From Parietichytrium sp. I65-24A (lineage: Eukaryota > Sar > Bigyra > Thraustochytrida > Thraustochytriidae), in contig BLSF01000042.1 of NCBI GenBank assembly GCA_012862575.1, positions 310,001 to 374,000 on the forward strand: a DNA stretch of 64,000 bases, written 5' to 3'. The notes below the pieces were generated by a model that was not told the DNA's origin, ran no database searches, and saw only the letters and a program-made list of their open reading frames with translations. The position numbers were made by a program, and so were the translations under genes. How positions within the stretch are numbered: the stretch's first letter is position 1; every line of letters starts with the position of its first letter. This document shows positions 1,684 through 49,748 of the stretch, piece by piece.

Positions 1684-1699
1684 GTACCGGTACTCGTAC
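1684..1699. promoter_or_regulatory. Triple GTAC element (GTAC-CG-GTAC-TC-GTAC)
   Basis: Three GTAC cores are each separated by exactly two bases, and the first ten bases (1684-1693) form a perfect palindrome. The element lies about 270 bp upstream of the permease start. Identical or similar paired GTAC elements occur in several other intergenic regions of the window. A regulatory role is inferred from recurrence and location only. Confidence 0.4.
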
Positions 1700-3370
1700 T
1701 CACGGTCAGCACTAGAGCGGAGTATGAAACCTTTTCCACCTTCACCCTTCACTCCCTTCACCCTTCCTTCTTCATTCTCCCTTTCCCCCGAAAAGGAGGA
1801 ACACAAGAAAAAGATGAGATAAAAGTGTGAGCTGCTGCAGTTGCTATACTTAGCGCTCCTTTTGGCCAAGGTGCATGTTCTCACAGTCAGTGGACATCTC
1901 TCGGATCAAGTAATCGTCAGTGGCAGTTTCAACTCCATGACGCATACTAACCTGAGCACCCAATACAGAGAGGCGGGAAAGATACTGCGTCAACTTTTTC
2001 ACAACTCTTGTGAAGTGAACAGGACATGTTGTGACTCGACTAGTCTGAATCTACCAGAGGCTAGTTGTCTGATTCTGAACTTCACTCGCGTTCCGAGCAG
2101 ATTTAAAAGCCTTTGCTTCGCGCCACTGTCACTAGGCTGAGTCCTTCGTTACTCGCTGTCAGTGTCCCTTTAGCGCGCCGCACCAACGAAATTGAACTAA
2201 TTGATGGAATGCTGAATTAATATTCCAAACTCTAAACTCTCAATTCTTCTACTTCTTCGTCTGGTGTTCGCCTCACGTCCCAACCAATCTCCAGGTGAAC
2301 GAAAATGACTTGGATGTTACTGATGCAACCGATGCATGAGAGGAAACAAGAGAGATAGATTGGGACTGACAGCGAGTAATGCTTGGCAAATAGCCGTGGG
2401 CAGCATCATCACGCTGCACACCTTTCCTCCGTTCCTTTTCTTCGTTTCCTGTCCTGTCCAAGTCTAGTCTAGCCTAGCCTGGTCTTACGCTTGAGCGTTG
2501 CGAGATATTTGAGACACTAGCTTTTGCTTCTTATCTTTTTTCAGCGACTATCGAGTTAGTTCACTCGCTGCGCCGACACGTAGAGAGTCTAGAGCACTGG
2601 CACTAAGCGAGTGCACGTGCTGTCTAATTTATGAGTACTGTGAGATGGATTGTCGACACGACGCCACGCCCTCCTCGACCCGAAAAGCGCGCTGCTCTGC
2701 TTTCCTAAAGATCACCTTACAGATCCACCTTTTTTTGAAAAAACAAAAAACAGGTCAGGTTGTGCGCTGCGCCACACATATTTGTTTCAGCAAAGCGGCC
2801 GCGCACGTTCCGCAATTGCTTCTAAAGCTTTCAGCCACTCAAGTCACTCAAGCTTGTTTCGGCGAGAGCAACCAACATTTTTTTTCTCACAAGCTGTGCT
2901 GGTCATCGATTGCACAAAACAGCCTCGGGTCACGATTTATTACTGCTGCCGGTAAAAATCAAAATTGGGTGCTGGTTTGTTTCAACAGACTGTCGTATCT
3001 GCCGTTCTCCTGTGGTCAATTTTCTCTAAGAAAAATGACTATCGACCATGGACTCGGTCTGGAGTTGTGTTGCACTCTCATGGGATCTCATAGATCGTCA
3101 ATGACCCTTGTGTCCCATGCATGCCGGAGAGTCGCAACATCTCTCAACTCTTCAAACAAGGCAGATCTCCACTACGCGAGTTCTTGTAAATCAACTCTTT
3201 TCGCTGCCTGCGATTCATCTCCACAATAAACATGAATGACCTCTGTCGATTAGCAATTACCAGACTAAGTCGACAGTTTGGCGAACATACGCTTAGCATC
3301 ACTGATAGTAAGCGGTGGCACTACTACGGCAGTGGGTAGCCCGTGCTGTAGTGGGTTGAGGACCGACTGT

Positions 3371-3382
3371 GTACTCGAGTAC
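3371..3382. promoter_or_regulatory. 12-bp palindrome GTACTCGAGTAC
   Basis: This perfect palindrome lies about 140 bp upstream of the beta-hydroxylase ATG. The same 12-mer recurs at 30733-30744, and nine-base halves occur at 8739-8747 and 57162-57170, all between genes. Its role is inferred. Confidence 0.35.
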
Positions 3383-3521
3383 CCACACGTCGGTCAGGCT
3401 GACTTTACTTTTAGGACAGCAGTCAATGCGCCAGAGTCGGAGGCCTTGAAAGGGCGACAAGTGCTCAAGAGTGTGCGTACTCGACAAAGCACACAGCCGC
3501 AAGAAGGCAAAAAGGCTCGCA

Positions 3522-4734
3522 ATGTCCCACGAAGCAACTGCACGTGCGGGACTTTTCGCGCTGAGCAGGGCTTGTGAGCAGGGCAAGAACGGCGGAAGTG
3601 AGTTCCAGGAGAACGGCGGCCACGAGCAATCGCAAGGTGACCATATTACAAGCCGACTGGTAGACATTTTGCGCCAAGACTATGGCCTTGGAGACCTTGG
3701 GCTTGTCGTTGTTCAAAAATGGCTGCGGAAGATGGGCGAGAACGCAGACGGCCTTGAGAGGCTCCGAGATTGGTTCCTGCTCCTTGTGAATGGCAAGAGA
3801 AGGAGGAAAGGTGCATTTCACCCATTTCAGCTCGGGTGTCCTGACTTGGTCCCTCGTCTTCGCCAGCAAGCATTTTGGGACCAGGTTGATCACGTTACAC
3901 AGCTTCTGGAAAATGCTTTTCCGGATGTAAAGGAGGAGCTTCTCAGCAAGCAGACCAGTGCGCTCTTCCAGCAATATCGAGCTCCAAATTGGGCCGCACC
4001 AGGCCGACTTGCTTCTGACGGGATTGGGAGCCTTGGGCACGACAAGGGGGAATGGGATGTTTGTTACCTCTATTTGCATAACGTGGATTTCGAACGGAAT
4101 TGCCAGATGTTTCCTAAAACAGCAGAACTAGTAAGTTGCCTTGCCGCTTCCGTCGCAGAAGCAAAATTTGTGCGTTTGGTGTGATTCTAACCACTTGTTC
4201 CAAACAATCATCATCAAGATCAAAAGCCTTCCAAGGTGGTATCGCCACGCTTTTTTCTCAGCACTTGCCCCAAATACACACATCGCTCAGCACAATGGTC
4301 CAACAAACAAGAAACTGAGAATCCATCTTCCTCTACTTGTTCCGCCAGGGCAAGTCTCTGGGATCCGTGTTGGGTCGGAAAAGCGAGACTTTGTGGAGGG
4401 TAAGACCATCACATTTGACGACTCCTTTGAACACGAGGCCTGGAACTCGCATCCAGATCTGCCGAGAGTGTGTTTAATTGTCGACGTCTGGCACCCAGAC
4501 TTCACCGATCGAGAGATCAATCTCTTGAGTTTCTTGGAAAAGGGGAAGATGAGGCGGGCCAAGCAACTGTGCTCCGCTGCGGGATCTTCGTACGTGGATT
4601 CCGACTGGAATGTGAAATCCATCCCCTTGCAGGAAAAGCCAACCCACGACGACCTCGCATTTGCGGGAAACAACTTTTACGCTCTACTAGAGCACACATC
4701 GAGAATGTGCCGGCCCTTACAGAGCTTGTGTTGA
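3522..4734 (+). CDS. Aspartyl/asparaginyl beta-hydroxylase family 2-oxoglutarate dioxygenase
   Basis: Members of this Fe(II)/2-oxoglutarate oxygenase family (PF05118) hydroxylate Asp or Asn side chains, for example in EGF-like domains. I infer two exons, 3522-4130 and 4219-4734, with an 88-bp intron starting GTAAGT, giving about 374 aa. The catalytic part is in exon 2. HNGPTNKKLRIH (228-239) carries the first iron His (H228) and the 2-oxoglutarate-binding Arg/His pair. DDSFEHEAW carries the second iron His (H275), and a following Arg in PRVCLIVDVWHPD matches the second co-substrate contact. The first in-frame ATG is 3522; the frame is open 17 codons further upstream but lacks an ATG. No clear transmembrane segment or TPR region like that of animal ASPH is seen. 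A secreted EGF-repeat protein is encoded about 36 kb away, but nothing links the two directly. Confidence 0.85.
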
Positions 4735-5684
4735 TCCATTACGCAAAGAGTGCAACACTAAACTGTACAGATTATCCTAAATAAATTGCATAGTACCCTC
4801 CAACGGATCTTTACTTTATTTCTGTCGATCAAGGGACGGTGATGCCGAATGCGCATATATATAGTAGTAAAAAAACAGTGCTCTTGACGAAGCCTCGGCG
4901 GGGTCGCCAAGGGGTAGTTCGGCTCTGATTCGGAGAGTGCGGAGCTAATAACAAAACGACTTTGGCAACTCGTCAAAATAAATAAACTATATGTGCTATA
5001 TGTGAAGAAAAAAGCAGAGACGAGCACCATATACTTTACCGGTACCGGCTTTGAGGGCTGAGTATAGCACTTGGTACAATCAATACAGGGAAGAAATCTC
5101 GAAAAAAAGCTGCCACACTCCGCATGAAATGGAAACTTGAGAGTGTGTAGATGTCACACTGGCTGCAATGGTTTACCCACGAAGGGCACTTGCACGTGCA
5201 ACCACCCGGTATAGTACGCCGGTAGTCCATGGGCAACTTGAGCTGCAAACGAAGTCCTTGCGAATAGTGCAGCACATGTCGCTCTTGTGGCTGTGAATAT
5301 GGTGAAGATAAGCGCTCGTGATCGTGGGAGCAGCTGTAGTGATTTCTCCCTCCAGTAGCGGCTCTCTGAAGTAGCTGCTGGTGCTGGGAATGCAGCATTG
5401 CTCAGCTAGAAGCGGTTACGTGAAAGAACAGAATTCAGAATTCAGAATTCAGAATTCAGAAAGATGGAAAAGTGGGAATAACTTGGTTTGCATGAACTCG
5501 AGAGCACTCACACGGTACCGTAGTGGCCTACACCACCCGTACTGCTATCGCTTTGTAGTCGCGCGGTATTCATTCGTTTGTGCCGCAACCCCGCACTCGC
5601 CACTCACTGCTTGTGGTGGAGCGCGCGTGCAGGAAGGGCGATTGGAGAGTGAGTTGGGCGAGAGCAGCCGGCTCACAGGTAAAA
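4735..5684. other. Intergenic region with an EcoRI-like heptamer repeat
   Basis: This is the 950-bp spacer between two plus-strand genes. It holds a 10-bp palindrome CCGGTACCGG (5039-5048), an 8-bp palindrome CGGTACCG (5513-5520) and the GAATTCA array at 5431-5460. No convincing coding frame or RNA gene was seen. Confidence 0.6.
5431..5460. repeat. Tandem heptamer (GAATTCA)4
   Basis: Four exact copies of GAATTCA plus two bases lie about 230 bp upstream of the kinase start. Each unit contains the palindrome GAATTC. Confidence 0.9.
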
Positions 5685-7649
5685 ATGATGCTCGACTTCG
5701 ACGACATCACTCCACGCGATGTGATGAACACGCGCATAACGCTCTACCGGCGTGGGCAGAACCCTGGGCTCGACAAAGGCGTTCATATGGATGTTGCGCC
5801 CAGCGAGAGCATGCCTTCACTGTACAAGCGGGCTTCGGAGCGCCTCGGGGTGAATGAAATTGACAAAATCGTCAACTTGGATGGCGACGTCATTCAGGAT
5901 GTTGTGATGATCAACCAGGATGACATCCTCTACGTTTTGATCAAGGGGGAGGAGATGCAGAGGAAGACCTCTCGCCGGAGCGAGCACGGGGCTTTCACGC
6001 AACGGTCCGTCAGCAATTTCAGAGACGGCGACCCCGATTGGGCAGCGGAGCGCGACCCTATTTCCGAGGGTGACGACTGCGAGGAAGAGGAGCTCGTGGG
6101 CAATTATGTGTTGGGCAAGTTTTTGGGGAGTGGGTCTTTTGGAAAGGTCCATATTGGCACCCATAGCATGACTGGCGAGAAAGTTGCACTAAAGTTCATG
6201 AACAAAAGTGAGTTGGGAACCTTTCAAGACGCGGAAAGGGTGTTCACGGAGATTCAGTGTCTCAACTCTCTTGATCACCCAAACGTAATCAAACTTCACC
6301 AAGTTATCAACTTGCCAGACCACATGGTACTTGCGCTTGAATATGCCTCTGGAGGAGACCTCAAAGAGGTCGTTGATACGCTTGGCTCTATAGAGGAGGG
6401 TCTTGCCTCTCGTATATTTGTTCAAATTCTTGATGGAGTGACCTATTGCCACCGACACAACATTGTTCATTATGATCTCAAATTGGAAAACATTTTGCTG
6501 ACAAACCCAGGAGCCGCTTCGAGCAAGGAGCTGGACAAACTTGAAGCTGACTTCCAAAATGGAAAAAAGGGCGTTTCTGACCTCGACTTGAGCATAGTTC
6601 AAGTAAAGATCGCCGATTTTGGTCTCTCTCAGCTGTGTAACCCTGGCCAGACATCAGATTACAGCGCAGGAAGCTTGGCGTACATAGCACCAGAGGTATT
6701 CCAGGGCGGGGAGACTGCCGGTGCACCGAGAGATGTTTGGGCTATGGGCGTCATTTTATTTTCCATGCTCACCGGCAGACTCCCCTTTTCCGGGACCTCG
6801 TACAGCGAAGTCGTCTCCAATATTCGCAAGGGCGTGTACCGCTTTAGGGACGAGGACAAAATTTCGGAGAGCTGCAAGCAAATAATAGCCGCAATGCTTC
6901 CAACGAACCCCGACGAAAGAATGACCGTCTCGGAGCTGCGCATCATGCCGTGGATCGACAGAGGACTGCCACACACACGCGCGAAAACTCCATCAGACGA
7001 GCATCCCAAAAATGAGAATAATGACTCCAAGCCTGTACGGCCACAGGCGGAGGTCGGCGCAACAGAAGATCCTTGTCCAGACGCCGACGGCGTCACACTC
7101 GACACTATTGACGGAGCCGGGGAGCAGGAAATTTCTCAGAGCCGCCGTGGTTCCAAAGAATCCACATCCTCGGGACATTCTAACGCGTCCCGAAACAGCG
7201 CGATCTCTGTGGAAACCGCAGAAAGTGGGTCAATCCTTCGAAATAGACTAAGCGATCAGCTGCCATCTAGTCCGTATTCGGCCGCGTCTCCAAAAGGAAA
7301 AGGAAAACAGCGCCTGAACGGGGGACAGGCGGCAAGCGCTCACAGGAAACTTCACGACGAGACTAGTAGGCTGGACACATCCAAGGCTGAGGACGAAAAG
7401 TCTGTGTCGTACAGATCCGGCGGCGGTGGAACGCCAACAACCAGAACAGCCTTGGTGAAGACCTTGGAGATCTCTCGGCCCAATTCTGCAGGAGGTAGCT
7501 CAGTTGGTTCCAGCTCTTCACCGACTGGATCTCAAAATTCCAAGGGAATACTTCCGCCAATCAACTCTCCAAAGAATGAGAAGAAGTGGTCCAGTGGAGG
7601 GTCGCAGTCATTCTCTCCTAGAAGTGCGTCAAACTCGAATATGCGCTAA
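5685..7649 (+). CDS. Ser/Thr protein kinase with N-terminal doublecortin/KHA-like domain
   Basis: The protein has 654 aa. Residues about 12-85 (ITLYRRGQNP to LYVLIKGEE) look like a beta-grasp domain of the doublecortin or KHA type. The kinase domain spans about 139-425. It has the Gly loop GSGSFGKV, ATP-binding VALKFM, catalytic loop HYDLKLEN (262-269), DFG (311-313) and GSLAYIAPE, placing it near the CAMK/AMPK-related kinases. The catalytic Arg of HRD is Tyr (HYD), so it is a non-RD kinase, although the Asp base is kept. About 27 extra residues separate the catalytic loop from DFG. The last 230 residues are Ser-rich and probably disordered. ATG 5685 is followed at once by a second ATG at 5688; the frame is open upstream but has no earlier ATG. 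The substrate is unknown. Confidence 0.88.
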   Translation: MMLDFDDITPRDVMNTRITLYRRGQNPGLDKGVHMDVAPSESMPSLYKRASERLGVNEIDKIVNLDGDVIQDVVMINQDDILYVLIKGEEMQRKTSRRSEHGAFTQRSVSNFRDGDPDWAAERDPISEGDDCEEEELVGNYVLGKFLGSGSFGKVHIGTHSMTGEKVALKFMNKSELGTFQDAERVFTEIQCLNSLDHPNVIKLHQVINLPDHMVLALEYASGGDLKEVVDTLGSIEEGLASRIFVQILDGVTYCHRHNIVHYDLKLENILLTNPGAASSKELDKLEADFQNGKKGVSDLDLSIVQVKIADFGLSQLCNPGQTSDYSAGSLAYIAPEVFQGGETAGAPRDVWAMGVILFSMLTGRLPFSGTSYSEVVSNIRKGVYRFRDEDKISESCKQIIAAMLPTNPDERMTVSELRIMPWIDRGLPHTRAKTPSDEHPKNENNDSKPVRPQAEVGATEDPCPDADGVTLDTIDGAGEQEISQSRRGSKESTSSGHSNASRNSAISVETAESGSILRNRLSDQLPSSPYSAASPKGKGKQRLNGGQAASAHRKLHDETSRLDTSKAEDEKSVSYRSGGGGTPTTRTALVKTLEISRPNSAGGSSVGSSSSPTGSQNSKGILPPINSPKNEKKWSSGGSQSFSPRSASNSNMR

Positions 7650-8217
7650 GCTCTCTCGCCAGCAGCCCATGCGATTTCTTTTCCGTCTGATTCTTGTAGT
7701 ATTTTGCACCTGAGCGTCAAAGCGGCTGTGCTTTGAAGCAGCTTTCCTGACTTTGAAGTGGGGGACAAATGCTGCCTGTCTCTTGTTCCCCCGTTGACAC
7801 TACCCGCGTCCGATCAACGTTTCTTCCCAACGTTCCTTTGCGTCAAGCGACCTCGAAGCTTCAGTCTTGTTCCTTGTAACCTGCGAGCGTATGCGCGCAT
7901 TCTCCTCAAATCAGACAGTGTCCTCGGAGTGTGGAACCTATGTGATTTCCTTTTGCACTATGCCTTTTTTCCAGGACCCACAGTCAACGACGTCTGACTT
8001 GTCGCATATTCTGAATTCTGTTCCCTTTCATCTGCACGCCCAATAGTTAGTGTCCGCGTTTAAAACAAAGAAAAGCCGTCCTGCAGTATTTTCTGTTTCG
8101 AACATATGTGTATATAACATGCTTTTACATTTGAGTCACTACAAACTAAAGAGATAGCACGACGCTCAGTGTAGAGGTGTGCTCGCACAACGTTGACCCC
8201 CGTTGTCCCCGTGCAGC
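7650..8217. other. Tail-to-tail spacer
   Basis: This 568-bp spacer lies between the 3' ends of the kinase and ankyrin genes. It probably holds both 3' UTRs. I see no gene; the open frame at 7758-7997 is short and featureless. Confidence 0.55.
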
Positions 8218-8667
8218 CTACAAGCTTTTGATGTATTCGACGACCTCTTTTAGCTGGGTCTCTTCCTCTTCATCGATATCCTCGTCTTCCAACTCGCTCT
8301 CCATGTGCTCAAGAGGAGTTCGCCCTTCCTTGTTGGTCACTTTCAAGTCGCCACCAGCTTCCACGAGCAGCTTCATGCACGCCGCGCTGGTGCAATAATG
8401 AAGAGCGGTGTCGCCTTCTGCATCAGCCATATTGACGTTCACGCCGCTCTGCCCTAGCAGGAATTGGAGCACTTCCAACTGTGCGTAGCTCGAGGCAGCC
8501 ATGAGCGCAGTGTACCCGTTCACGTCCTGCTCGTTTACAGAGGTGTTTCCCGAAAGAAGGCACGCACGGACAAGGTCCAACTTGCCGTCGCCCGCCAACA
8601 CTGCAAGCGGCTCCATCATCTGCGACATGGTGTCTGCCGACACCTCCGACTCGCTGCCGAAAATCAT
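8218..8667 (-). CDS. Small ankyrin-repeat protein
   Basis: The protein has 149 aa. The first in-frame ATG on the minus strand is at 8667; the open frame continues to 8799 without an ATG. Ankyrin signatures include VNGYTALMAASSYAQLEVLQFLL, split as VNGYTALMAASSY and QLEVLQFLL, then AEGDTALHYCTSA and NKEGRTPLEHM, so there are about four repeats. An acidic tail follows (ELEDEDIDEEEE), then a short helix ending EYIKSL. Size and layout recall small fungal ankyrin proteins such as the Yar1 and SPBC105.02c types, but I cannot assign a partner. It faces the SET gene head to head. Confidence 0.8.
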   Translation of the reverse strand: MIFGSESEVSADTMSQMMEPLAVLAGDGKLDLVRACLLSGNTSVNEQDVNGYTALMAASSYAQLEVLQFLLGQSGVNVNMADAEGDTALHYCTSAACMKLLVEAGGDLKVTNKEGRTPLEHMESELEDEDIDEEEETQLKEVVEYIKSL

Positions 8668-9415
8668 CTTTTCACACCACCAGCCAAGCAGAAACGCCCT
8701 GACACCGGCTATTTGAGGGCCGGAGTGTGCCGTGGGTTCTCGAGTACAACTCGTTTCAGTCGTTCTCGAACCGCCGAGTACCCCTTGAGAATCTGACAAT
8801 GTACAGAATGTACCGATAGTACCGATACAGTATCAGTCAGCATGGAGTGGCACACGGGTGGTGGTGGATGGTGGATGGTGGAGAAGGGCTAGAATTGCGG
8901 GTAGGACTGTGTACGAGTGTGCGGATTCTCAAGTTCCAAGATGAGAGTAGAGCAAACCGGATGGTGATAGATTTCGTCCAGAAATTCAAAGTGTTCGGAG
9001 TGCAATTCTCTATTCTCCGTAGCTTGGGTGCAGGAATGATCTTGCCTGGTGGTGGGGACAGGCTTCAAACCTGTTGGGCATTCGCGTGCCAGCCGTTCGA
9101 TTCGGCCTTTCCTGCGAAACTTTTTCCTTTGCGATTTGCTTCGTCATTTTGGACTCTGAGTTTTTAAGGACCAAGTTCTGTCGGATGATAGCGCACTGAC
9201 TCGGAAGACTCGGAAGCGATCTAAAGCGCTCCATTTGCAAAAAACTGTTAGTGGTATTCACTGCCAGTGTTTTGACTAGTAGAGTTTTGTGCTTGCTGCG
9301 TTCCAAACTGGTCACTGACCTAATAATGCTGATGTGGCGAGATTGGTGAAGGGGGGAAGGGGGGGCGAAGAAACGCGCGCGCGGCAGAGGGCACGCGGAT
9401 TCGGGCCACCACAGT
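8668..9415. other. Divergent promoter region with GTAC cores and a G-run pair
   Basis: This 748-bp head-to-head spacer carries CTCGAGTAC at 8739-8747 and three GTAC cores near 8801-8822. A G6-AA-G7 tract at 9351-9365 lies about 50-65 bp upstream of the SET start. No gene was seen. Confidence 0.5.
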
Positions 9416-10573: not shown

Positions 10574-10802
10574 ATCGCGGAGGCAGCGTTTCGCAACTAC
10601 ATTAACAGTACTCAGTACCTATTAATACCACTCCTGACACAGCACCACAGGCTAGTTAGGTCAGGGTTATACTACAAGCCCTAAGCGAAAATCGACCGTT
10701 GCCCTCGTAGCCCATTACATTCTTCAAATTTGACGCTCTAGTGGAAGGTGAGCTCCGGTGCGGCAAGGAACGCATGGCCGAGACATGATCTAACGAGGCG
10801 GG

Positions 10803-13085: not shown

Positions 13086-13322
13086 TGATGTGATGTGGTG
13101 TGTTACCCAGTGCGATTTGATGAAAGCGGTGAATCCGAAATGAAAAACTTAATTGTCTTGAAGGAATTTTGGTTTAACGATGAAAAGGATGTTGGCTGAT
13201 CCATCAGGGGATCACATCAGTGGACAGTAATCAAGAGATGAGAGTGCTTTTATAATTCGAGATCTTCTATTTCACGTCTGTGCACATTCCCTTGTCTGTC
13301 AAAAAACCACATAATGTTGTCA

Positions 13323-20831: not shown

Positions 20832-22129
20832 CCTGGCGAATATTTGCCCTTTGGTCGTTTTGACTAACCCTTGTCCGACACTTTCAACTTGCCATCAACT
20901 AACTCGCGCTCCTCATCCTCTCTTCCGCTGCTCTGCTGGTCTTTCAAGCTTGTCTCAAGCTTGACCAAGATGCACAGAGCATCACAGACATTCACAGACA
21001 CGGCTTTCCGCATCACCACTTGTTAGGATATCGATAGTAGAAGAGTGTGTAGGGGGGGATAGGTCTATTGATTTTCTAGCACGTTTACGGTCAGGGAAAG
21101 AAATGGTGAGGAGCTTTGTCCTTCTAGTAAGCTTTTGTGAGGTCAGAGTTACTTTGAAAGAAGGTAAGTTCGCAACGGTGACTCTGGTGACTCGTTGACA
21201 ACCTACTTCCCATGTACACGACAACATACCAAGAAGCTAGGGTTTGCATTCCAAAACCGAGAAGCAGGATTTTGGGTTGATGGCTCGCGGAGACTCCCTC
21301 TCTGTAGGAGCAGGGAGGGGTAGTCGGAAAGGTGAGGAAAGTGAGGAAGCTCAGAGCTGAGAGCCAAGCAGTTAAAGCGGAATGCGGTAGTACAGGTACC
21401 AGTCGGGCACAGGAAAAGTTAGTATCCAGTGTTGTGAAACCTTGTGGACTGTGATTCCCTTGTGGCGAGGTTCAAAGTAGCAAAGCGGAAGGTTACTCAA
21501 GTACCGCGTGTCTTAATTAGCTAGCTAGCTAGAGCTTGGAGGCCATAGTGGATGCATAGTATTCATCGATCACTATATAGGAGTGGCGCAGCAGCAGCAA
21601 CTGCAACAGAGACCCGAAAGACCCAAAAGTCTCTGACAGTCTGTTTTAGGTGTAATTAGGAGGGGGAACAGAGAGGGGTAGGGAACGAATAGTCGGGAGA
21701 GTTGAGACGAGTAAGGCATTCTTAATGAGGAAGTCTTCTCAATTTCTATTCTTCCAAACATTCCAAACTGCCTCTGAATCTGAGTAGTTCGACCTTACCT
21801 GACAGTGTTTTCTGGCTGGGAGGGAATGGGAGGGAGGAGAAGGAGGCTAGCCTAGTATTCCTATTGTGGAGGGAGAACAAGGAGGACTTGGAGAGAGACC
21901 GGAGACAGGTTTGCAGCTGCCGACATCTTGAGACCGAACGAGCCCGAACGAGCCCGGTGGCTAGGTGACCGAAAATCAGCAGCGCAGCGGGGACGAGGCA
22001 ACGAGGCAACGAGGCGACGAGGCAACGAAGCAGGGGGCAGCGAGGCATTGAGTCAGCGGGACGGCGGCGCGCTGAGACAGAGTGCCCGGACTCGGGCGCG
22101 TGTGTGCGGGTGCAAAGTGACGAGGCAGA
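20832..22129. other. Divergent spacer, 1.3 kb
   Basis: The spacer contains GTACAGGTAC (21390-21399), a TAGC run near 21522-21534, and the ACGAGGCA array (21993-22032) just before the Zn2Cys6 start. No gene is recognised. Confidence 0.55.
21993..22032. repeat. Tandem octamer (ACGAGGCA)5 in a 5' leader
   Basis: There are five head-to-tail 8-bp units, three exact and two with one change each, about 100 bp before the start codon of the Zn2Cys6 gene. Confidence 0.85.
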
Positions 22130-30713: not shown

Positions 30714-30744
30714 GTACGTGTACTCAGGGCGAGTACTCGAGTAC
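30714..30744. promoter_or_regulatory. Clustered GTAC elements
   Basis: GTACGTGTAC is followed ten bases later by the palindrome GTACTCGAGTAC. The cluster sits between two divergent genes, so it could serve either. Function is inferred from recurrence. Confidence 0.4.
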
Positions 30745-30815: not shown

Positions 30816-30888
30816 CACTCTCGCACTCTCGCACTCTGCGTCGTTACGTCGTTGCGTCGTTGTGTCGTTGCGCGTCGTTGCCGTTGTT
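30816..30888. repeat. Two adjacent octamer arrays in the leader of the CCCH gene
   Basis: Three CACTCTCG-type units (the last imperfect) run straight into about five CGTCGTTG-type units. They end about 125 bp before the start codon at 31014. Confidence 0.75.
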
Positions 30889-31013
30889 CTGGGTGGCAAC
30901 CTCCTCGGTTTACATGGTTCGTCACATGCACAGGACGCGAAACAGCACAGTTCTGCGCAACCTCCTCTCGCCCTTGTCCCGAGCGCAGCAGCGGGCAAAT
31001 CTTAAATAATTTC

Positions 31014-32321
31014 ATGGAAGCGGTGTGCGTCACCGGGCAGCTCTTGAGAACCCGGGCACTCGGGAAAGGTCTGCGATTCTGTGACCTCTTGGTAGCCTCA
31101 CAAGAGGAGGTTTCTGGAGGTCGCGATTCAGATCGCTCAGTGCTTGATGGGGGTGCGAATCAGTCGCACCTTCGCCCTCCTTCTCTCGGTGACGTGCCCA
31201 CTGGGAAGGTTGTCGAGCTCGCATTTCGTGCCCAGGACTGGCCACCAGAGCAACCATTCCCGTACAAGCGACGGGACCTAGTCGTTGGAGATACCGTTCG
31301 CATTTCCATTCTTTGCGCGGAGTCTGTCGAAGGAGTGAACGGGAGCGAGAGCAAAGAGCTTTTTAGATGCTCAAGCTGTGAAGTACTTCATCGTCCCGTT
31401 TCGTCGCAACCTGTCACAACTTGGAGCGCGGCATCGACCCAAGAGCCATATTCAAAATCCGCCTCTCTGCCGCACGAACGCCGCGACGATGGTAAGGCAC
31501 CGAAGAAACGGAAGATAGAGGAAAGATTGAGTGAAGCGAGCTTGGCTCCGTTATGCAAATTTTGGATTTATGAAGAGGGGGGCTGTAAAGAAGAAAAATG
31601 CTCTTTTCGACACTACGTTCTCAATTCTGCAGAGGAGCAGCGAATAGCTCGTCTTCGAGAGCAGAGAAAAAAAATCGACCAGTCAGCTGCTCGGGAAGGT
31701 GAGGAATATCACCATGGTTGCGGCGACACGACGTTGCACGGCAAGGAGACAAGAAGCAGAGCTTTTGCTACTTGGTTGGTTGAAACCTTTGGCTTAGAAA
31801 ATCTGGAGAGCGGAGAAGGAGTTTTAGATGTTGCGGGAGGAAAGGGCCTGAATTGCATCAACTTGCTGTGTTTGACGCAATCCTCAAAGTTGCAAACTAC
31901 TGTTGTAGACCCTTACCAGAGGAACACAGTGCTTCCAAAGAAGATTAAAAAGAGACTCGCGAAACTTGGCTGCAAGCAACCTCAATTCAAGTTCGAGCCA
32001 TTTGATCGTCATTTTGTAGATAAGAATTTCGACCTGGTATCGGCGGCCAGCTGTATTGTTGGAATGCATCCAGATCAAGCCACCGGAAGCATTGTGGAAG
32101 AGGCTGTTCGACTCGGAAGGCCTTTCGCGGTCGTTCCATGTTGCGTTTTTTCCTCCCTGTTCCCAGACCGTAAAATAGAAACTTCGGGATCGACAAAAAA
32201 TGTCGAGACTGTAAATGACCTTGTTCAGTGGCTTCAAGGTATGCATGCAAACGTCAGGACAGATTTTCTGCCAATCAACGGCCGAAATAAAATTCTGTAC
32301 ATGCGTTCCAGCGACTATTAA
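31014..32321 (+). CDS. OB-fold/CCCH-finger/methyltransferase protein, probably RNA-directed
   Basis: The protein has 435 aa; ATG 31014 is the first in frame (the frame is open upstream without ATG). Residues about 1-110 (VTGQLLRTRALGKGLRFCDL and following) look like an OB-fold nucleic-acid-binding domain. A CCCH zinc finger follows at 181-200 (C-x9-C-x4-C-x3-H, CKEEKCSFRH). From about 235 comes a Rossmann methyltransferase: motif I VLDVAGGKG at 270-278 and later VGMHPDQATGSIVEEA and FAVVPCCVFSSLFP. This resembles the PF13679-type methyltransferases found in tRNA-modifying and related enzymes. The combination of two RNA-binding modules with a methyltransferase suggests RNA modification; the substrate is unknown. 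Confidence 0.75.
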   Translation: MEAVCVTGQLLRTRALGKGLRFCDLLVASQEEVSGGRDSDRSVLDGGANQSHLRPPSLGDVPTGKVVELAFRAQDWPPEQPFPYKRRDLVVGDTVRISILCAESVEGVNGSESKELFRCSSCEVLHRPVSSQPVTTWSAASTQEPYSKSASLPHERRDDGKAPKKRKIEERLSEASLAPLCKFWIYEEGGCKEEKCSFRHYVLNSAEEQRIARLREQRKKIDQSAAREGEEYHHGCGDTTLHGKETRSRAFATWLVETFGLENLESGEGVLDVAGGKGLNCINLLCLTQSSKLQTTVVDPYQRNTVLPKKIKKRLAKLGCKQPQFKFEPFDRHFVDKNFDLVSAASCIVGMHPDQATGSIVEEAVRLGRPFAVVPCCVFSSLFPDRKIETSGSTKNVETVNDLVQWLQGMHANVRTDFLPINGRNKILYMRSSDY

Positions 32322-32424: not shown

Positions 32425-32434
32425 GTACCGGTAC
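32425..32434. promoter_or_regulatory. Palindrome GTACCGGTAC
   Basis: This 10-bp palindrome is identical to 1684-1693 and 46403-46412. It lies between genes. Confidence 0.35.
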
Positions 32435-33017: not shown

Positions 33018-33027
33018 GTACTAGTAC
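33018..33027. promoter_or_regulatory. Palindrome GTACTAGTAC
   Basis: This 10-bp palindrome is identical to 40836-40845 and 49739-49748. It lies upstream of the GPCR gene. Confidence 0.35.
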
Positions 33028-39715: not shown

Positions 39716-40615
39716 TCATGCATAGGCTAGCGCGTCCTGCGTCTGACACGCCTCACCTGTATAACCTGAAAAGCAACTGCATACACCGGATTCGTAGTCA
39801 CAGATGCCTCGGTTTGAACAATCCACATGACACAAGTTTCCAGCAACCCCGCCATCAACAGACGTTGTAGTCTTCCCAGAGATTGGGTCCTGAAGCTTAC
39901 CTTCGCAGTCGGTCTCATCTGCATCGGTAAGGGGATCATTCCCACTGGGACATCGGCGACGCTCGCAGAAAGGGCCAAAATACTCTGGAAGTTGTGTTTC
40001 GTCATCGCCAAGGCCAACTTCCCAAGATGAATCGCAGACGCACATCGTTATCATATCCTCGTCCCATGTTGTGGTAGACTCAAGCCCACCGTACGACGTC
40101 GCCGAATTCAGAGGTTGTGCAGTGGAGTCCTCTGCAGCTTCTGAGAGAGTGAGGCACCTACCGTGACCGCTGCATGCGGCTGACTCTGTGTCCGTCGGGT
40201 CAATGCGGCAGCTTCTATATTGGCAAGCTGTACCTTCAAAACCCGCCAAGCAGACGCACGTTCCGATTAAGCGATCACATGTCCCGCGGCCACTGCATTC
40301 CACTTGTGCATGGGCTGTATCGGCCGCCGTTGGTACATCACTCCACGCCATCCCAAGTGGACACACCTTTTCGCTGCAGTCTGGGGCAGGAAACGGAGGC
40401 TGAAGGCGAAGTTGAAGTTCGCTGTCGGCACCGAACCCTTCTTCACACATACATCGCTTGTTTTTTGCGTCACACGAACCGTGGCCGCTGCAGGTTATAA
40501 TAACTCCGTCAACCTCTTGCTGGAAGATCGAACAGACAGTCCAGGCCAAGGCCGTCTTTTGAACACAGCACCACAAAAGGACGCAAAGAAGAAGCGCAGT
40601 GCATGGGGCCCTCAT
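39716..40615 (-). CDS. Secreted EGF-like repeat protein
   Basis: The protein has 299 aa; ATG at 40615 opens a clear signal peptide (APCTALLLCVLLWCCVQKTALA). Four EGF/tenascin-type units follow, each starting with a CSGHG or similar core: CSGHGSCDAKNKRCMCEEGF, CSGRGTCDRLIGTCVCLAGF, CSGHGRCLTLSE and CSNRGICDYESGVCSCFSGY. Between units there are longer insertions with additional Cys (CPLGMAWSDVPTAADTAHAQ and a related CPSGNDPLTDADETDCEG). This two-part pattern is common in secreted proteins of stramenopiles and some other protists. There is no membrane anchor after the last EGF unit, so it is probably a secreted adhesive or matrix protein. The role is unknown. Confidence 0.82.
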   Translation of the reverse strand: MRAPCTALLLCVLLWCCVQKTALAWTVCSIFQQEVDGVIITCSGHGSCDAKNKRCMCEEGFGADSELQLRLQPPFPAPDCSEKVCPLGMAWSDVPTAADTAHAQVECSGRGTCDRLIGTCVCLAGFEGTACQYRSCRIDPTDTESAACSGHGRCLTLSEAAEDSTAQPLNSATSYGGLESTTTWDEDMITMCVCDSSWEVGLGDDETQLPEYFGPFCERRRCPSGNDPLTDADETDCEGKLQDPISGKTTTSVDGGVAGNLCHVDCSNRGICDYESGVCSCFSGYTGEACQTQDALAYA

Positions 40616-40835
40616 GTTTGCTACCGCCCTCCGCCTTCGCAGCACGGCCCGCACAACGGAAGACGCGTACGTTTTTGTTGCTTAACAGCTCACAGACATG
40701 CATGCAATCCCATCTCAACCCGAAACCAAAACACTAAAGAACCGTACGTAATAAATGGTATTATGATATTAGCCGTTACAATAAGACAAGTCTCTGTCGC
40801 TGTCGTGGTAACTAACTCATTCATACCGGTTCTGG

Positions 40836-40845
40836 GTACTAGTAC
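40836..40845. promoter_or_regulatory. Palindrome GTACTAGTAC
   Basis: This 10-bp palindrome lies about 220 bp upstream of the EGF gene start and is shared with 33018-33027 and 49739-49748. Confidence 0.35.
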
Positions 40846-41054
40846 TCTCTCTGAAAGCGGCAGCCAGTACGAGTCCCAAAATCCATGAAGGACGCAGCGT
40901 CATTTTCGTGGGTTCTTGCTTCTGCAGAACGATCATGTTGCTGCAAAATCACGATCACTTCTGTAAACAAGGGTGTTCCGGTAACACCGTCCATTTAGAC
41001 GAAGCCCTTATGAAGAAGATCCATCCGGCTCCTAGTAGAGGGTTCGTCTATCAT

Positions 41055-41098
41055 GTCGCCAATAATTGGAAGATTGGGAAAAAGCGATTATTGGCGAC
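41055..41098. repeat. Perfect 12-bp inverted repeat containing CCAAT/ATTGG
   Basis: GTCGCCAATAAT (41055-41066) and ATTATTGGCGAC (41087-41098) are exact reverse complements around a 20-nt loop. Each arm carries a CCAAT core, in opposite orientation. Confidence 0.85.
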
Positions 41099-43167: not shown

Positions 43168-44604
43168 ATGGCAACCGAAGTCGCGAGCTACCCGACCGAT
43201 GCTGAGACCGTAGAGGACCCAGCATTCAGCCTCGAAGATGACAAGAAACTCCTTCGCGAGCTGAACTCGAAGACCTACAAGCAACAGGCCATCTGGTTCT
43301 TGAACGCATTCTGGAAAGATATTTTCGAGAACAACAAGGAAGAGAGTGAAGTGGTCTGGGGAGCTTGCTTTAGCTGCGTAGAGCTCGACCCCAAAAAGGA
43401 GGATGGATGCGAGCTTGATCAGTTTAGCTCTCACAGGCTCTTGGAAAGAGTTGACAAAGCTTTGACTGTCGTTGAGCTTCGCGAAACTCTTTCTAACATC
43501 GACCTTGACAACAACAAGAGCATGAGCTTGGCAGAATTCCTCGTCTTTAAATACAAGGTGGACTGGAGAAAGCTTGTGCACGCACCACAAGGCACTGTCG
43601 ACGAAGCGCGCCTCAAGCTTGCTGAAGAGAAGGTTGAAGAGGCACAGAAGGACATCGAAACGTCGGAAATCCGTGCCAAGGAGGCTCGCGACGCTCTCAA
43701 AGAGAGCGCGGACGCAGAAAAAGTAGCAAAGGCAAATGCAGATGAGGCCAAGTCCAAACTCGACCAGGCCACCGAGTCTGCCGAGCAAGCTGCTACAAAA
43801 GAGAACCAGGCAAAGAGCAGCGAAGAAAACGCACTGAAGGAGGAGAGCCAGGCGTTTGAAAACGAGTCACTCGCGAAGGAGGCTGAAGAGAAAGCCAGCG
43901 CGACAGCAGAGGAGCAGAAGGCTATTCAGGCACAGGTCGAAGAGGCTCTCAGCTCTATTGAGCGCGAACGGGAGGAATTTAAAGAAAAGTGCGACGAGCT
44001 GGAGAAAACTGGAAACGATGACACCATTGGAATCGTGAAAAGGAATCTTGCCAAAGCACAGCTTGCGCAGCTCCAGTGCACAGACCCATTGCCACTTCAG
44101 AAGGCAATTATCTCACACAATGCCATCGTCCGAAGGCAGGAGAAGCTCACTAAAACCGCTGCAGCCGCCGAGAGTGCAGCTATCAACGCCCGCAACCAAG
44201 CAGAGGAAAGCCGTAAGCTTGCAGTTCTTGCGCGCGAAAAGGCGTCGGAGGAGCGTGGTATCGCTACCTCTGCTCGTAACACAGCAGAGGAGCAAAAGGA
44301 TGAGGCGGACAAAGCACGCCAAGAGGCAGACGAGAGTGCTCAGGCTGCTGAAGAAGCTCGCAAGATTTCTGAGCAGTCCAAAGCTGACGCTGAGCTTGCT
44401 TTACAGAAGTCGGTAGACTCGTTTCAGGAAGCAACAAGATTTCTGGAGAAGACCAAGCGTGAATGCAAGGGAGCTGGCAAAGGCAAGCTCTGGTGGATGT
44501 GGCGTGAACTTGAGGAGTCCAAGAAGTACATGAGCAAGGCACAGCTTGCCAGACTTGAGGTTGCTCCTCCAATGGGTGCTGATGTCACCCCATCCTGCGC
44601 ATAA
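43168..44604 (+). CDS. EF-hand coiled-coil protein
   Basis: The protein has 478 aa; ATG 43168 in AAGATGG context. Residues about 25-140 form a helical domain ending in one canonical EF-hand loop DLDNNKSMSLAE (112-123; D, D, N, S, S, E at the six ligand positions), followed by FLVFKYKVDW. An earlier degenerate unit (CVELDPKKEDGCELDQF) may be its partner hand. Residues about 150-440 are an Ala/Glu/Lys-rich coiled coil with heptad-like EEA and KAQ steps. The motif KAQLAQLQ in the coil recurs as KAQLARLE near the end. A cytosolic calcium-responsive structural protein is likely. I do not recognise the family by name. Dense, even codon use suggests strong expression. Confidence 0.78.
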   Translation: MATEVASYPTDAETVEDPAFSLEDDKKLLRELNSKTYKQQAIWFLNAFWKDIFENNKEESEVVWGACFSCVELDPKKEDGCELDQFSSHRLLERVDKALTVVELRETLSNIDLDNNKSMSLAEFLVFKYKVDWRKLVHAPQGTVDEARLKLAEEKVEEAQKDIETSEIRAKEARDALKESADAEKVAKANADEAKSKLDQATESAEQAATKENQAKSSEENALKEESQAFENESLAKEAEEKASATAEEQKAIQAQVEEALSSIEREREEFKEKCDELEKTGNDDTIGIVKRNLAKAQLAQLQCTDPLPLQKAIISHNAIVRRQEKLTKTAAAAESAAINARNQAEESRKLAVLAREKASEERGIATSARNTAEEQKDEADKARQEADESAQAAEEARKISEQSKADAELALQKSVDSFQEATRFLEKTKRECKGAGKGKLWWMWRELEESKKYMSKAQLARLEVAPPMGADVTPSCA

Positions 44605-44863
44605 ATGTAATAATCTTTGTGCAAAATTCATGAAAGCGAAGGAAATAAAAGCCTGTGTGGTCCAAACTGCACAAACCAGATCCCTTTCCTTTTGTGGTCG
44701 AAAGTCATTCTTTTATGTCATAAAAAACAGGTAAAACAACGAATAGAATACTCTATCAGGGAAAATTCTTTATTTTACTTCTTCAGATGAACATCGAAAT
44801 TCTACATTCAGAGAAAGAATAAAATGGTGTCAAATTCAGTGAAAGGCATCAGTACTGTACACG

Positions 44864-45976
44864 TCATGGATTTTTCATGTTTGCATCTGCCTCTCGAAAC
44901 CGCTGTTCGGTCTCTAGAGCTCCGGCAACCTGGACTTGAAGCTCTGCACTAGGCCACAAGTTCGCAGCTTGAAGCGTTTTATTCATAGTTGACCTATAGT
45001 CGAGAATTCGAGGTGGGTACAATGTTCGATCCATAAACTCCCACGCACCACTCTCAACTTTCTCGGGAATCAAACTGCTGTGGGTTGCCCCAAGCCACAT
45101 AATGATCCCCTCCAGCGTGTCGTCAGCATTGAAGCGTCGTTGTAATGTGTCGCCACCACAGAATACAGTGATGCGCGTGGTACCTGCAGCTCCTAGGTCG
45201 GGCTCCACGGGAATTCGGCCCCTATACTGCTCACGGCGCCTTGCCTCTTCCTCCCCAGCGCTGGACATCGATTCTTTTAGAGCATTTTCGAACGCAATCT
45301 TCTCCTTGGCAAGCAAGTAAATCGGATTTTCTTGAATGCCTTCCAGACTTGCTTTTGCCAGCCAAAGCCGCGCTGGGTCTTCCCCTTTCAAAACATACCA
45401 ATCGCCGCTCTCGGCGAAACCTACAAGCTTCATAAAAGATGTGCCCCAAACGCCCGCTTTCCCAATCGTCTGTGAAAACCGTTTGTTGGTCATCTTGATC
45501 TCCCGGTACTTTTGCACGCCTGGATTGTCCAGAATTGTGCGGATCACGTAAATCAGAGTTTCAACGGCCTGAGGATACTCCACGAGCCCCGTTACAGCTC
45601 CTTCCAAGCGGTTTTCGAACGGCTGCGAATTCCCCCCTTCTAAACGCTGGGGAGACTTTGACTTCTTTGAAGCTGAAACATTTGACGGCGCTTGAACAAC
45701 GCGCTGCGTGCCGCGTTGTTGAAATCGAAGCATCCTTTCTTCGGCCGCTTTCGCAGCTCTCTCTCGCCTTTCGGAGGCTGCGTCCGAGCGTGCCTGAGTT
45801 GTTTGAGTAGCTTGCCCCGCTTGAGACAAGAGCAGTTCGATTGCCCTCTCCACGTTCCCTTCTGCCTGTCGTAACGCGTATTCACTTGGACTTTGTTCAA
45901 ACCCCATGCCAACCATGCGCTCTACTTTGGCTCGGTCAGAAGCGGACGAACCTCCAAATGAGGACCTGTTGCCCAT
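44864..45976 (-). CDS. UBA-PUB-UBX protein, Cdc48/p97 cofactor
   Basis: The protein has 370 aa; ATG at 45976 (MGNRSSFGGSS). A UBA domain near the N-terminus (VERMVGMGFEQSPSEYALRQ and following, about 20-60) can bind ubiquitin. A PUB domain (about 120-200: VETLIYVIRTILDNPGVQKY, KAGVWGTSFMKLVGF) binds the C-terminal tail of Cdc48/p97. A C-terminal UBX domain (about 270-355: TTRITVFCGGDTLQRRFNAD and on) binds its N-domain. PUB plus UBX is the signature of UBXN6/UBXD1, an adaptor for lysosomal and ER-related p97 work. The start MGNRSSFGG, with Gly at 2 and Ser at 6, could be a myristoylation site, as inferred from the motif. Confidence 0.85.
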   Translation of the reverse strand: MGNRSSFGGSSASDRAKVERMVGMGFEQSPSEYALRQAEGNVERAIELLLSQAGQATQTTQARSDAASERRERAAKAAEERMLRFQQRGTQRVVQAPSNVSASKKSKSPQRLEGGNSQPFENRLEGAVTGLVEYPQAVETLIYVIRTILDNPGVQKYREIKMTNKRFSQTIGKAGVWGTSFMKLVGFAESGDWYVLKGEDPARLWLAKASLEGIQENPIYLLAKEKIAFENALKESMSSAGEEEARRREQYRGRIPVEPDLGAAGTTRITVFCGGDTLQRRFNADDTLEGIIMWLGATHSSLIPEKVESGAWEFMDRTLYPPRILDYRSTMNKTLQAANLWPSAELQVQVAGALETEQRFREADANMKNP

Positions 45977-46031
45977 TTTCGGAAGGTCGCCTTTCGCACC
46001 TCCCTCTGGTCGTAGGGCGACTGTCAGAGCT

Positions 46032-46067
46032 ACCAGAGATACCAGAGATACCAGAGATACCAGAGCA
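46032..46067. repeat. Tandem nonamer (ACCAGAGAT)4
   Basis: Three exact and one altered 9-bp unit lie about 55 bp upstream of the UBX gene ATG, so probably in its 5' leader. Confidence 0.85.
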
Positions 46068-46397
46068 CCACTCCTCCGATTCCTCCGAAGCTTCGGGATC
46101 TTCGGGAGTGAAAAGACTTGACACGCTCTGTTCGCGGGAGTTGCGGGAGTTGCAGAATTCAGCAAACCTTCTTTAGAACCTTCGCTCCACTCCTTGTCCT
46201 CCTCTCCTACAATCTCCTACATCTCCTACGCTGCTGAACTCTAGGCTCTCTAGCTAGGCACCTACGAGGTCTGTAATTGTCTCCACCTCCTAGACTTTGG
46301 CCTATCATCTTCGTCTGGAATCGTAGTAGAAATAGTACACAGTTTAGAAATTCACTTTCCAGAAGGAGAGAGTATGACACAATACTAGCACCTGCAG

Positions 46398-46413
46398 GTA
46401 CAGTACCGGTACT
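46398..46413. promoter_or_regulatory. GTAC cluster with palindrome AGTACCGGTACT
   Basis: GTAC-A-GTAC-CG-GTAC; bases 46402-46413 are a perfect 12-bp palindrome. It lies about 420 bp upstream of the UBX gene start and 270 bp past the desaturase stop. Confidence 0.4.
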
Positions 46414-46679
46414 GGTGCCCAGAAAAGTGTGCGAACCCAACCGCTTTAGCTAGCCTATAAAACCATTATTTTACTAGTTATATAGCTAGCTACTAGGGAG
46501 TAGCTGCACACCCAGAAGATGGTAGGGAGCTAGCCAACGGATCAGCAATTTACGATTGGAACATGCACCTGTGAACCAAGTGCACCCGACGATACAACCA
46601 TTACAAGCGAAAACGTCGAGATATGATTGACTGTACACCAGTTTGCTTTCATGATTTCTCTTAATTCAAAAAAAAAATA

Positions 46680-48029
46680 TCATTCTATCTTTTGCGTCTT
46701 GCTTTTCATCTGCTGAGCAGCATCTTGTTGACCAACAAAAATATCTTCTCCATAGGCTCTGTCGGTCTGGCGCAATGTTCCGAACAGCCAATCCCACGCT
46801 ACAAGCGTCACGCCGTACTACATCACATGTCGTTCACCCAACTCTTTTAGCAACCACGGCCGACACATATCCTGGAAGAGAGGGAATCAAGAAACTTACG
46901 TTCAAGTGAAAATATTGGTGGTGATCATCATGAAATTTCGTCGAAGGAACCCACGGCAAATCTCCCTCGTAGTACACCCCAGAGTGGTCCACCTGGTTGT
47001 GATACGCCACGAAAGTGACGACGGTCAGAAAAGACATAACATGAACGGGGAAAATGGCACAGCACCAAATTCCGGCTGTCTGGAAACCAATGTCTGAGAG
47101 AATTGGGCAAAGATGCTGTGAGTTTAGTAAAGGTCAAAACAAAATCACCATATGAAACACAAACGGATGACAAGCTTACACTCAATTGGATGAATCGCGA
47201 AAGCTCCAAACGCGGTAGGAGCCTTGTATCGATGATGCCACTTGTGAACGTATTTGTAGATCCACTTGTGATGCAAAATTCTGTGGATCCAGTAACTGTA
47301 GAAGTCCACCCAAAAGTAAACCAGAATGCATCCAGCTATGTAGTGCAACCAGCCCCTAGATTCCACATTGTAGTACAGCTTGAGAAAAGGGTAATTTTGG
47401 TGCAAAAAGAATATGCCTGTTCCCGCAAAGCCTGACATGAAGCCGTTGAAACAGCCTGTCAATTTCTCCTCCAAGAACAGCTCGTTAGTTGGCCAGCACT
47501 TTGGCTGGCATTTCCACAAATGAGCCTCGCTTCGTCGCTCGACGTAGTAATGGTTGTGAATGGTCTGCGCACCAAGATAGTAAATGATGAAAGTGGAGAT
47601 CCCTGCAAGGGTCATCCATCCCAAGATGAAGTACGGGTCTTTCATCGCCGACTGCATGTATGTGCTTGCAGTGAGGTCGTGGTTTAAGGCCATCCGCGCT
47701 ACAGTCGAAGCGTTTGCAATAATCTCGCTCGATAGCTCAGTCTTTCCGAAATCGGCGACAAGGGGGTACAAAATGCTTGGTTCGTTGTGGGTCAGCCTGT
47801 CGTACTCGTCTATGTGTAACGTGAGCAAGAGAAGAATTGCAAACATCATGCCGCCAGATCCCGCGAAGGCCACAAGAAAGCTCAGCACCATGAAACGAAT
47901 GTACTTGACGGAAACGCTCGAGGTCTTCACCTTCCCGCGACGATACCAGTAATATTTGCTGTTGACGGGATACAGCCATCGATGAAACCTGCTCAGCACA
48001 TCGTTTCCTGGGAACGTGTGAGGAGGCAT
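46680..48029 (-). CDS. Fatty acid hydroxylase/sterol desaturase superfamily enzyme
   Basis: These are ER di-iron membrane enzymes that hydroxylate or desaturate sterols, sphingolipids or fatty acids. I infer three exons: 47180-48029 (ATG at 48029), 46900-47093 and 46680-46817, with 86- and 82-bp introns (GTAAGC and GTAAGT donors). The product has 393 aa, and both junctions restore the family sequence (HPIE|YIGF and FHLN|YGVTLVAWDW). Histidine motifs are complete: HRILHH, HKWHH and HDDHHQYFH. At least four hydrophobic segments precede or surround them. The C-terminus reads WDWLFGTLRQTDRAYGEDIF, typical of the superfamily. A roughly 100-residue loop between the first two membrane segments is unusual. 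The substrate is not determined. Confidence 0.9.
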
Positions 48030-49501
48030 GGCGTCAAGGCCGTCAACACTCTTGCAGCGCGGATCTGCAAACAAATCACCCCACCTCGCGACGAGACTGG
48101 CCGCGCACCTCACACACCTAGCGTCTTGCCTTCGCGCAGGGAAAGGGTTTGCCGTGGACAGAGACTCTCTCACCTGAAGCTCTGCGCTTAGCGAGCTGCT
48201 TCCTCCTGCCCTTTGAGTTGAGCTATGCCACAAGGAATGGCGGATTCAACCGTCAGTTGACCTATCTTGCACAGGACTCGTTGCGCGATGGGAAGGTGAT
48301 GTCGCAGCTAAATGGAGGACTCAGTTTACTCGGTTTCTGCAGATTTCTAAACCATGTGACATACTGAATACTTAGCTTCTACGCGCCTTACCTTTAAAAT
48401 ATCTAGTGTTGCGTTAAAAACTTTGGTCGCATAGTTCAGTCATAAGTTTAGTCTACCTTCTTTGAATCACTGCTGGAGACCCACTCCTATGTGCACGGCC
48501 TAAACTCGATTAGGACGACATTGAGTTTTTAGCGTTGTAGGCAATCGCGTAAACCACCCTCAGGGGACTTCGGTAGCAGAGCGTAGTGTCAGCACGCAAA
48601 CCAAGTGAAACAGATGAGGGGCCTCTTGCAAGAGAGGACAATCCCAGCTTCTCTTGTTCTTTCCCACGGAGAGGTTCCTTTTGTACGCGATCAAACAGAA
48701 CACCGGTCGGGTGTTTTGGGGTTCTCGGGATCGCTCTTGGGCCCCTTCTCCCGCTGTCAACATCGCAAGATTGTGCAGGTTGCCCCCTGCCTAGATCGAA
48801 GAAGAGCTCGCAGTTATTCTGGATTGCGTCCCTCAGCCTGAGGGATAGGCAGTACCCATGCAAAACGCATGCAAGGGAGACGTTGAGAAGAGCTCCACGA
48901 ACCATTATGAGACTCGACAAGAACCGGGACAGAATTCGTTTGTCATATAGGAGCACATTTAAAATACCCAAAATTCAAAACAGTGGAGCAGCTCGTGATT
49001 GTGTTGGGCGCGGCAGTCGGGGAACCCAGTTCAAAGTTTTGTTGTTGAGCGAAATTCGCCTCTCATCTGACCGATCTCACGTCCTGCAATCATACATTGC
49101 ATGCGATCCTAGAGCTATCCTATCCTTTGAAATTGCTCTGTAGAGCTTCTCAGAAAATTTGTCTCATGAGCGCAAGATACAAGCTACGATACCGAAGAGT
49201 CTGTACCCACTTTCAAGTTGAAATGACAAGGAATTAGCGATTTCTCGGGGGAAGACGCGTCGTCAAGCCCAATATCTTTGATGGTTTTTCTCAAGTGCTA
49301 TGCTTGCCAGGAGCTATCTAGGCTTTCAGACCCGGACTCCAAGTCGGGCTTCTGGCCGACTTGAGATTCGGACTCCCGGAGTTGAGCTGACATTCTCACG
49401 GCCATGGCGCTGGCACTGGCGCTGACACTGACAACTGCCATGACACAGTTCAGAGATTCCGAGTCAAAAAAAATTTACTGTGAATTCTGAACTGAATTTT
49501 T

Positions 49502-49590
49502 TCATGATCGTAATCATGATGCATAGTTTTCATCATGAAGATCATGGCCATCGAGTGATCGAATGATCATCAATCATTGATCATCATTAG
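49502..49590. repeat. Cluster of GATC/ATGAT palindromes
   Basis: This 90-bp AT-rich patch has many overlapping ATGATC, CATGATC and TGATCAT words, including a near-palindrome centred near 49575. It could extrude or bind a dimeric factor; the function is unknown. Confidence 0.6.
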
Positions 49591-49711
49591 TGGTAAAAAA
49601 ACGGACATGTTCTACCACCTAAGAAACACTAAGAATGGCGATTTCTCTTGACTTCTACTCGCAACTAGCAACGGTGACAGTGGACTGCCAGTATTCTGAC
49701 TCGGAGACAAC

Positions 49712-49748
49712 ACTAGTACCGGTCAAGTACCGGTATCGGTACTAGTAC
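49712..49748. promoter_or_regulatory. Inverted-repeat cluster of GTAC elements
   Basis: ACTAGTACCG (49712-49721) and CGGTACTAGT (49737-49746) are exact inverted repeats. A further GTACCGGTA lies between them, and the palindrome GTACTAGTAC overlaps the right arm (49739-49748). It lies about 290 bp upstream of the SAM-domain gene. Confidence 0.45.

Follow-up and report, generated by a model that had tools for sequence, protein, structure and literature searches.

The window studied here, i.e. the whole stretch of 64 kb taken from contig BLSF01000042.1 of the thraustochytrid Parietichytrium sp. I65-24A (genome of 42.5 Mb, precisely 42.54 Mb, in 172 contigs; G+C about 50%), carries eukaryotic genes such as those for a myosin, a 7tm_3 receptor and a Zn(2)-Cys(6) protein. 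The closest relative of the 7tm_3 protein in a single protein search was from another thraustochytrid, Hondaea fermentalgiana (44% identity). The elements of interest are pairs of the tetranucleotide GTAC, written GTAC-Nx-GTAC (or Nx), where x is the number of bases in between. As described below, the unit behind these pairs is a doublet of the palindromic hexamer RGTACY (R, purine; Y, pyrimidine) whose two copies are separated by 0 or 1 base, i.e. GTACY-N(0-1)-RGTAC, which recurs throughout the genome and is a candidate protein-binding element.

GTAC pairs across the window

An earlier reading of the window made from its letters alone (the sequence-only reading) had described nine GTAC-N2-GTAC sites, and all of them were found at the coordinates that it gave, three with the word GTACCGGTAC (1684, 32425 and 46403) and three with GTACTAGTAC (33018, 40836 and 49739). 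Its estimate of about one site by chance pointed to a genuine excess, although the figure was conservative, because dinucleotide shuffles of the window (n = 100) gave a mean of 0.18 and a maximum of 2, and none of the 100 reached nine. The genome average (3,324 pairs in 42.54 Mb) predicts about five sites, so that the window is fairly ordinary in this respect.

The nine sites had also been placed between genes and mostly upstream of start codons. None of them lies inside a confident gene call, but three (30714, 40836 and 49739) sit in stop-to-stop frames of at least 150 codons; therefore, the assignment as intergenic depends on an intron-free gene prediction. A predicted ATG start was found within about 560 bp of six of the nine, and sites 30714 and 40836 are near frames opening with TTG or GTG, which is weaker evidence in a eukaryote. 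An upstream position thus holds for most of these nine, but the trend is not significant for doublets in the larger sample considered below. The spacer begins with a pyrimidine and ends with a purine (Y..R flank) at six sites, and the remaining three, at 1690 (TC), 21390 (AG) and 30714 (GT), may be background or weak variants. The sites and their surroundings are listed in Table 1.

Table 1. GTAC pairs and arrays of the window and their neighbourhood
Element	Positions	Setting
GTACCGGTACTCGTAC, three consecutive GTAC with spacers CG and TC	1684..1699	about 272 bp upstream of minus-strand open reading frame 971-1411, which has no Pfam match
GTACTCAGTAC, 3-base-spaced form overlooked by the sequence-only reading	10608..10618	flanked by a SET-domain gene and a gene with a sulfotransferase domain
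GTACAGGTAC, outside the Y..R class	21390..21399	flanked by a short-chain dehydrogenase gene and a Zn(2)-Cys(6) gene in divergent orientation
GTACGTGTAC, outside the Y..R class	30714..30723	GTACTCGAGTAC nine bases beyond
GTACCGGTAC	32425..32434	about 100 bp past the stop of frame 30852-32321
GTACTAGTAC	33018..33027	447 bp ahead of the gene for the 7tm_3 receptor (33475)
GTACTAGTAC	40836..40845	about 180 bp upstream of minus-strand EGF-repeat frame 39716-40654 (GTG opening)
GTACAGTACCGGTAC, spacers A and CG	46398..46412	upstream of a minus-strand PUB/UBA-domain gene (44864-45976 counted from ATG)
GTACTAGTAC	49739..49748	29 bp ahead of a gene with a SAM domain (49778)

Two more GTACs precede the site at 49739, beginning 12 and 23 bases earlier. 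Adjoining the array at 1684, a 53-base unit stands twice in tandem at 1535-1639, where the assembly has one N. Separately, a selenocysteine tRNA was identified at 9030-9115 on the plus strand, on which ARAGORN (TCA anticodon) and Rfam (RF01852, 74.3 bits) concur; it is positioned 300 bp ahead of the SET-domain gene.

The doublet rule and its distribution in the genome

When GTAC pairs were counted over the whole genome, the numbers were 1,183 at N1, 3,324 at N2 and 2,647 at N3, compared to a background, taken as the mean per spacing over the twenty spacings N11-30, of about 632 (12,637 pairs in total). This represents an increase of about fivefold at N2, fourfold at N3 and twofold at N1. The reversed word CATG, used as spacing control, gave 757, 1,672 and 718 pairs at N1, N2 and N3, respectively, and about 710 at each spacing of N11-30. 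The enrichment of the two-base spacing announced by the sequence-only reading therefore extends to the genome, but a single fixed spacing is too narrow a description, and a strict two-base rule was rejected, given that N3 nearly equals N2 and that N1 is also raised.

What unites the N2 and N3 spacings is the Y..R flank, and for this reason the RGTACY doublet is taken as the unit. Doublets occur at 4,053 places in the genome compared to 610 for the same pattern written backwards, and make up 68% of the 5,971 N2 plus N3 pairs, a share expected to be 25% if bases were used evenly and about 37% given that 61% of all non-coding GTACs are followed by Y. The commonest word, GTACTCAGTAC, has 1,428 occurrences (745+683) versus 22 (8+14) for its backwards-written control, and with its TCA/TGA spacer it accounts for 1,428 of the 2,647 N3 pairs. 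It is followed by GTACCGGTAC, with 1,036 (control, 94), 547 of which are RGTACCGGTACY, and by GTACTAGTAC, with 536 (control, 152). The excess goes beyond base composition, as is usual for a transcription factor site: strictly non-coding DNA (93 kb) contains 21 doublets, whereas 100 order-3 Markov simulations gave a mean of 0.67 and a maximum of 4. Likewise, two spacing peaks with the same Y..R flank represent the half-site arrangement looked for in a binding site.

The relation to genes was analysed in a 304-kb sample composed of the window and 24 stretches of ten kb, to which the coding, flank and gene-position counts below refer. Confident coding DNA, called with a simple codon-usage filter applied to ATG-started frames and with introns not modelled, covers 47% of its bases. 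None of the 32 doublets fell in this fraction (p = 3e-9), nor did any of the 25 that remain when the window is left out (p = 5e-7), and only three of 29 N2 pairs did so (p = 5e-5). Therefore, neither a lack of N2 enrichment in the genome nor an equal density in coding sequence, either of which the sequence-only reading had named as arguing against it, was observed. The flanks of individual GTACs follow the same division, with densities in non-coding DNA of 1,355 per Mb for RGTACY versus 645 per Mb for YGTACR (126 and 60 of 321 GTACs, the commonest and the rarest class, respectively), and the reverse in coding DNA (614 versus 861 per Mb; 87 and 122 of 378).

Regarding position between genes, doublet-spaced pairs were found five times in divergent and never in convergent gaps (p = 0.33; few data), the zero for N2 and N3 pairs in convergent gaps corresponding to only 6.2 kb.

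Two further words were enriched near doublets, namely TAGCTA (1.09 vs. 0.21 per kb) and AGTAGTA (12 vs. 0.9), a result that fits regulatory modules and repeat-rich patches equally. TAGCTA is in addition the most over-represented palindromic hexamer of the non-coding sample (41 vs. 16.8), with about 18-fold its coding density. A second word, TCACAGTCA, often adjoins GTAC in the form GTACTCACAGTCAGTAC (e.g. L023:2669, L007:8436 and L020:2857), and TCACAGTC was counted 20 times in non-coding sample DNA versus 3.8 expected. A 7-base repeat, CAGAATT (5429-5461 of the window and elsewhere in the non-coding sample), places GAATTC copies one base apart in seven pairs, the same geometry as that of RGTACY pairs one base apart; this may be a plain repeat.

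A candidate protein-binding element and its rivals

The above results suggest that the doublets, non-coding wherever this was checked, are a cis element bound by a protein, a reading to which we assign a probability of about 0.6. At some 4,000 places, two RGTACY hexamers stand side by side, 0 bases (GTAC-N2-GTAC) or 1 base (GTAC-N3-GTAC) apart, and a sequence-specific protein would bind each doublet, either as a dimer or through two cooperating domains, in such a way that bound doublets may mark regulatory DNA and affect transcription. Several observations weigh against this proposal. CATG is also elevated at N2 (1,672 vs. about 710), hence some of the excess of GTAC at this spacing may be generic. 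As GTACTAGTAC and GTACTGAGTAC can contain a stop codon, it is in part trivial that they are missing from coding DNA. Doublets were upstream-only in 11 cases and downstream-only in five (p = 0.46), or seven and five without the window, and an upstream bias was detected only for the looser set of N0-9 pairs (37 vs. 11, p = 0.008, window included). Finally, some GTAC arrays are plain tandem repeats, in non-coding DNA that is rich in them.

This last point leads to the main rival, according to which doublets are 1.7-copy pieces of 6- or 7-base repeats (GTACCG, GTACTCA) produced by replication slippage, with no binding protein involved. As a full account we find it doubtful, but it is a serious one because non-coding DNA abounds in short repeats: self-match is raised there at short lags, and there are many short tandem repeats, among them CAGAATT and AG/CT runs. 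Three CG-linked GTACs in a run were counted by hand at eight of 42 independent RGTACCGGTACY places (from 50 listed of the 547), the array at L007:1957 consists of GTACGTAC followed by four CG-linked GTACs, and that at L028:4150 has two identical TGA spacers. Yet N2 pairing of GTAC is exceptional in non-coding DNA, where only GA/AG runs scored higher among four-letter words (homopolymers omitted; gaps 0-12). Of 47 arrays of GTAC in non-coding DNA (gaps of at most 3), 41 are plain doublets, four of the six longer arrays have no repeated spacer, and periods of 6 and 7 coexist within one array (C1:678398-678414). In RGTACCGGTACY, the R..Y-flanked form of GTACCGGTAC, the outer letters at 34 non-overlapping places (from the same 50 of 547; hand count) were G..C in eight, A..T in nine and mixed in 17; outer letters that are A or G alike fit a degenerate RGTACY, unlike the copying of a GTACCG unit. 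Moreover, GTACCG is stop-free and in frame and still yields no doublet in confident coding DNA. Tandem Repeats Finder (TRF) reported no array at the nine sites of the window, but its score is out of reach for arrays of this length, and the result therefore indicates only that the sites are not parts of longer arrays. With respect to the several identical units typical of a microsatellite, the 41 of 47 two-GTAC arrays contrast with the eight of 42 triple runs, although a doublet of 1.7 copies cannot discriminate on its own. It may well be that slippage gave rise to some of the copies and that these were then retained.

Other explanations were considered. That the palindromes act as hairpins in RNA or single-stranded DNA (terminators, structures of untranslated regions) and not as double-stranded sites appears very unlikely. 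In 80-base windows, the mean folding z against mononucleotide shuffles was -0.86 for 37 pairs, compared to -0.12 for 150 single GTACs and -0.20 for 200 random windows, with 22% of the pairs below z = -2 versus 7% and 6%, respectively; 8-base inverted repeats were present in eight of 37 pair windows, the counts for single-GTAC and random windows being 8/172 and 57/1,000, respectively. However, once GTAC was masked these became 3/37 versus 6/172 and 53/1,000, so the excess is mostly the palindrome itself; nor was any tie to 3' ends apparent in the sample. The hairpin reading was rejected on the loss of the inverted-repeat excess. Excision of a transposon can leave its target duplication plus a few bases, and footprints of an element with a GTAC target (GTAC, a few bases, GTAC) would suit the geometry if 1-3 bases remained beside a 4-base duplication. 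Such footprints, though, would not yield Y..R spacers, a dominant TCA/TGA spacer or triple arrays, and no dispersed repeat spanned the sites in the sample, which makes this origin highly improbable. A dispersed element or miniature inverted-repeat transposable element as carrier was rejected as well, with none of 37 flanks in the sample matching elsewhere over the site. The hint of the sequence-only reading at SBP-type copper-response elements like those of green algae was not borne out and is hardly credible. The GTAC core, reportedly described by Kropat in 2005 for the copper-response element, is common to both, but SBP proteins, which are not known outside green plants and algae, prefer CGTAC(A/G), a form of YGTACR and thus of the rarest non-coding flank class here (60/321), and no SBP match was obtained in the genome in a search that had no positive control and is therefore weak. 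The sites of CRR1 and SPL7 accordingly resemble the doublets in their core and differ in the flanks favoured, in the SBP proteins that this search did not retrieve and in lineage. A CP2/Grainyhead profile (ACCGGT core) gave no match in the genome either, in a search likewise run without a positive control.

Possible readers and comparison with known systems

Should the doublets be bound by a protein, as we favour, the AP2 family is a possible lead to their reader. The genome has 33 AP2 domain matches (e.g. C83:34171-34593 and C1:450400-451647), 10 of them above the cut-off, and some single frames hold two or three. Three AP2 proteins rescanned with Pfam showed one or two AP2 domains each, over the cut-off in two of the three, along with Q-rich or low-complexity stretches; for one AP2 protein, no homologue was found at E<=0.001 among 7,995 candidates scored. 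A lineage-specific thraustochytrid code, with about 4,000 doublets read by an AP2 family of its own that reached the GTAC core independently of malaria AP2-G, is a speculative extension that we regard as quite unlikely as stated.

The regulatory sequence of labyrinthulomycetes, some of which yield commercial omega-3 oils, seems little charted, and a word with about 4,000 instances provides a concrete bait (AGTACCGGTACT or AGTACTCAGTACT) for finding a factor and for building promoters. Among the literature matches listed, no title concerned an RGTACY word, either for GTAC promoter motifs in stramenopiles or for thraustochytrid and labyrinthulomycete factors, and those listed of the 40 papers that contain the string GTACCGGTAC looked, from their titles and abstract openings, unrelated to such a motif. 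In the available part of a labyrinthulomycete chromatin paper (PMC10840233), motifs are matched to known factors and no word starts with GTAC.

One close parallel is the site of malaria PfAP2-G, given as GTACNC in PMC7083873, which has the same GTAC core in an organism whose factor belongs to the family in which the present genome is also rich, but which differs from the RGTACY doublet found here. The family name predicts little on specificity, because Phytophthora AP2 proteins were reported to bind sequences unlike those of human and plant ones (PMC11267843); the text of this paper on P. infestans factor specificities, figures aside, does not contain the string GTAC. Another parallel is that of the oomycete core promoter elements INR, FPR and DPEP, which PMC3599244 presents as genome-wide promoter words of another stramenopile group and for which microsatellites likewise had to be weighed, although the string GTAC is absent from the text of that paper. 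The doublet is a fresh instance of a familiar kind of element, in a little-known lineage.

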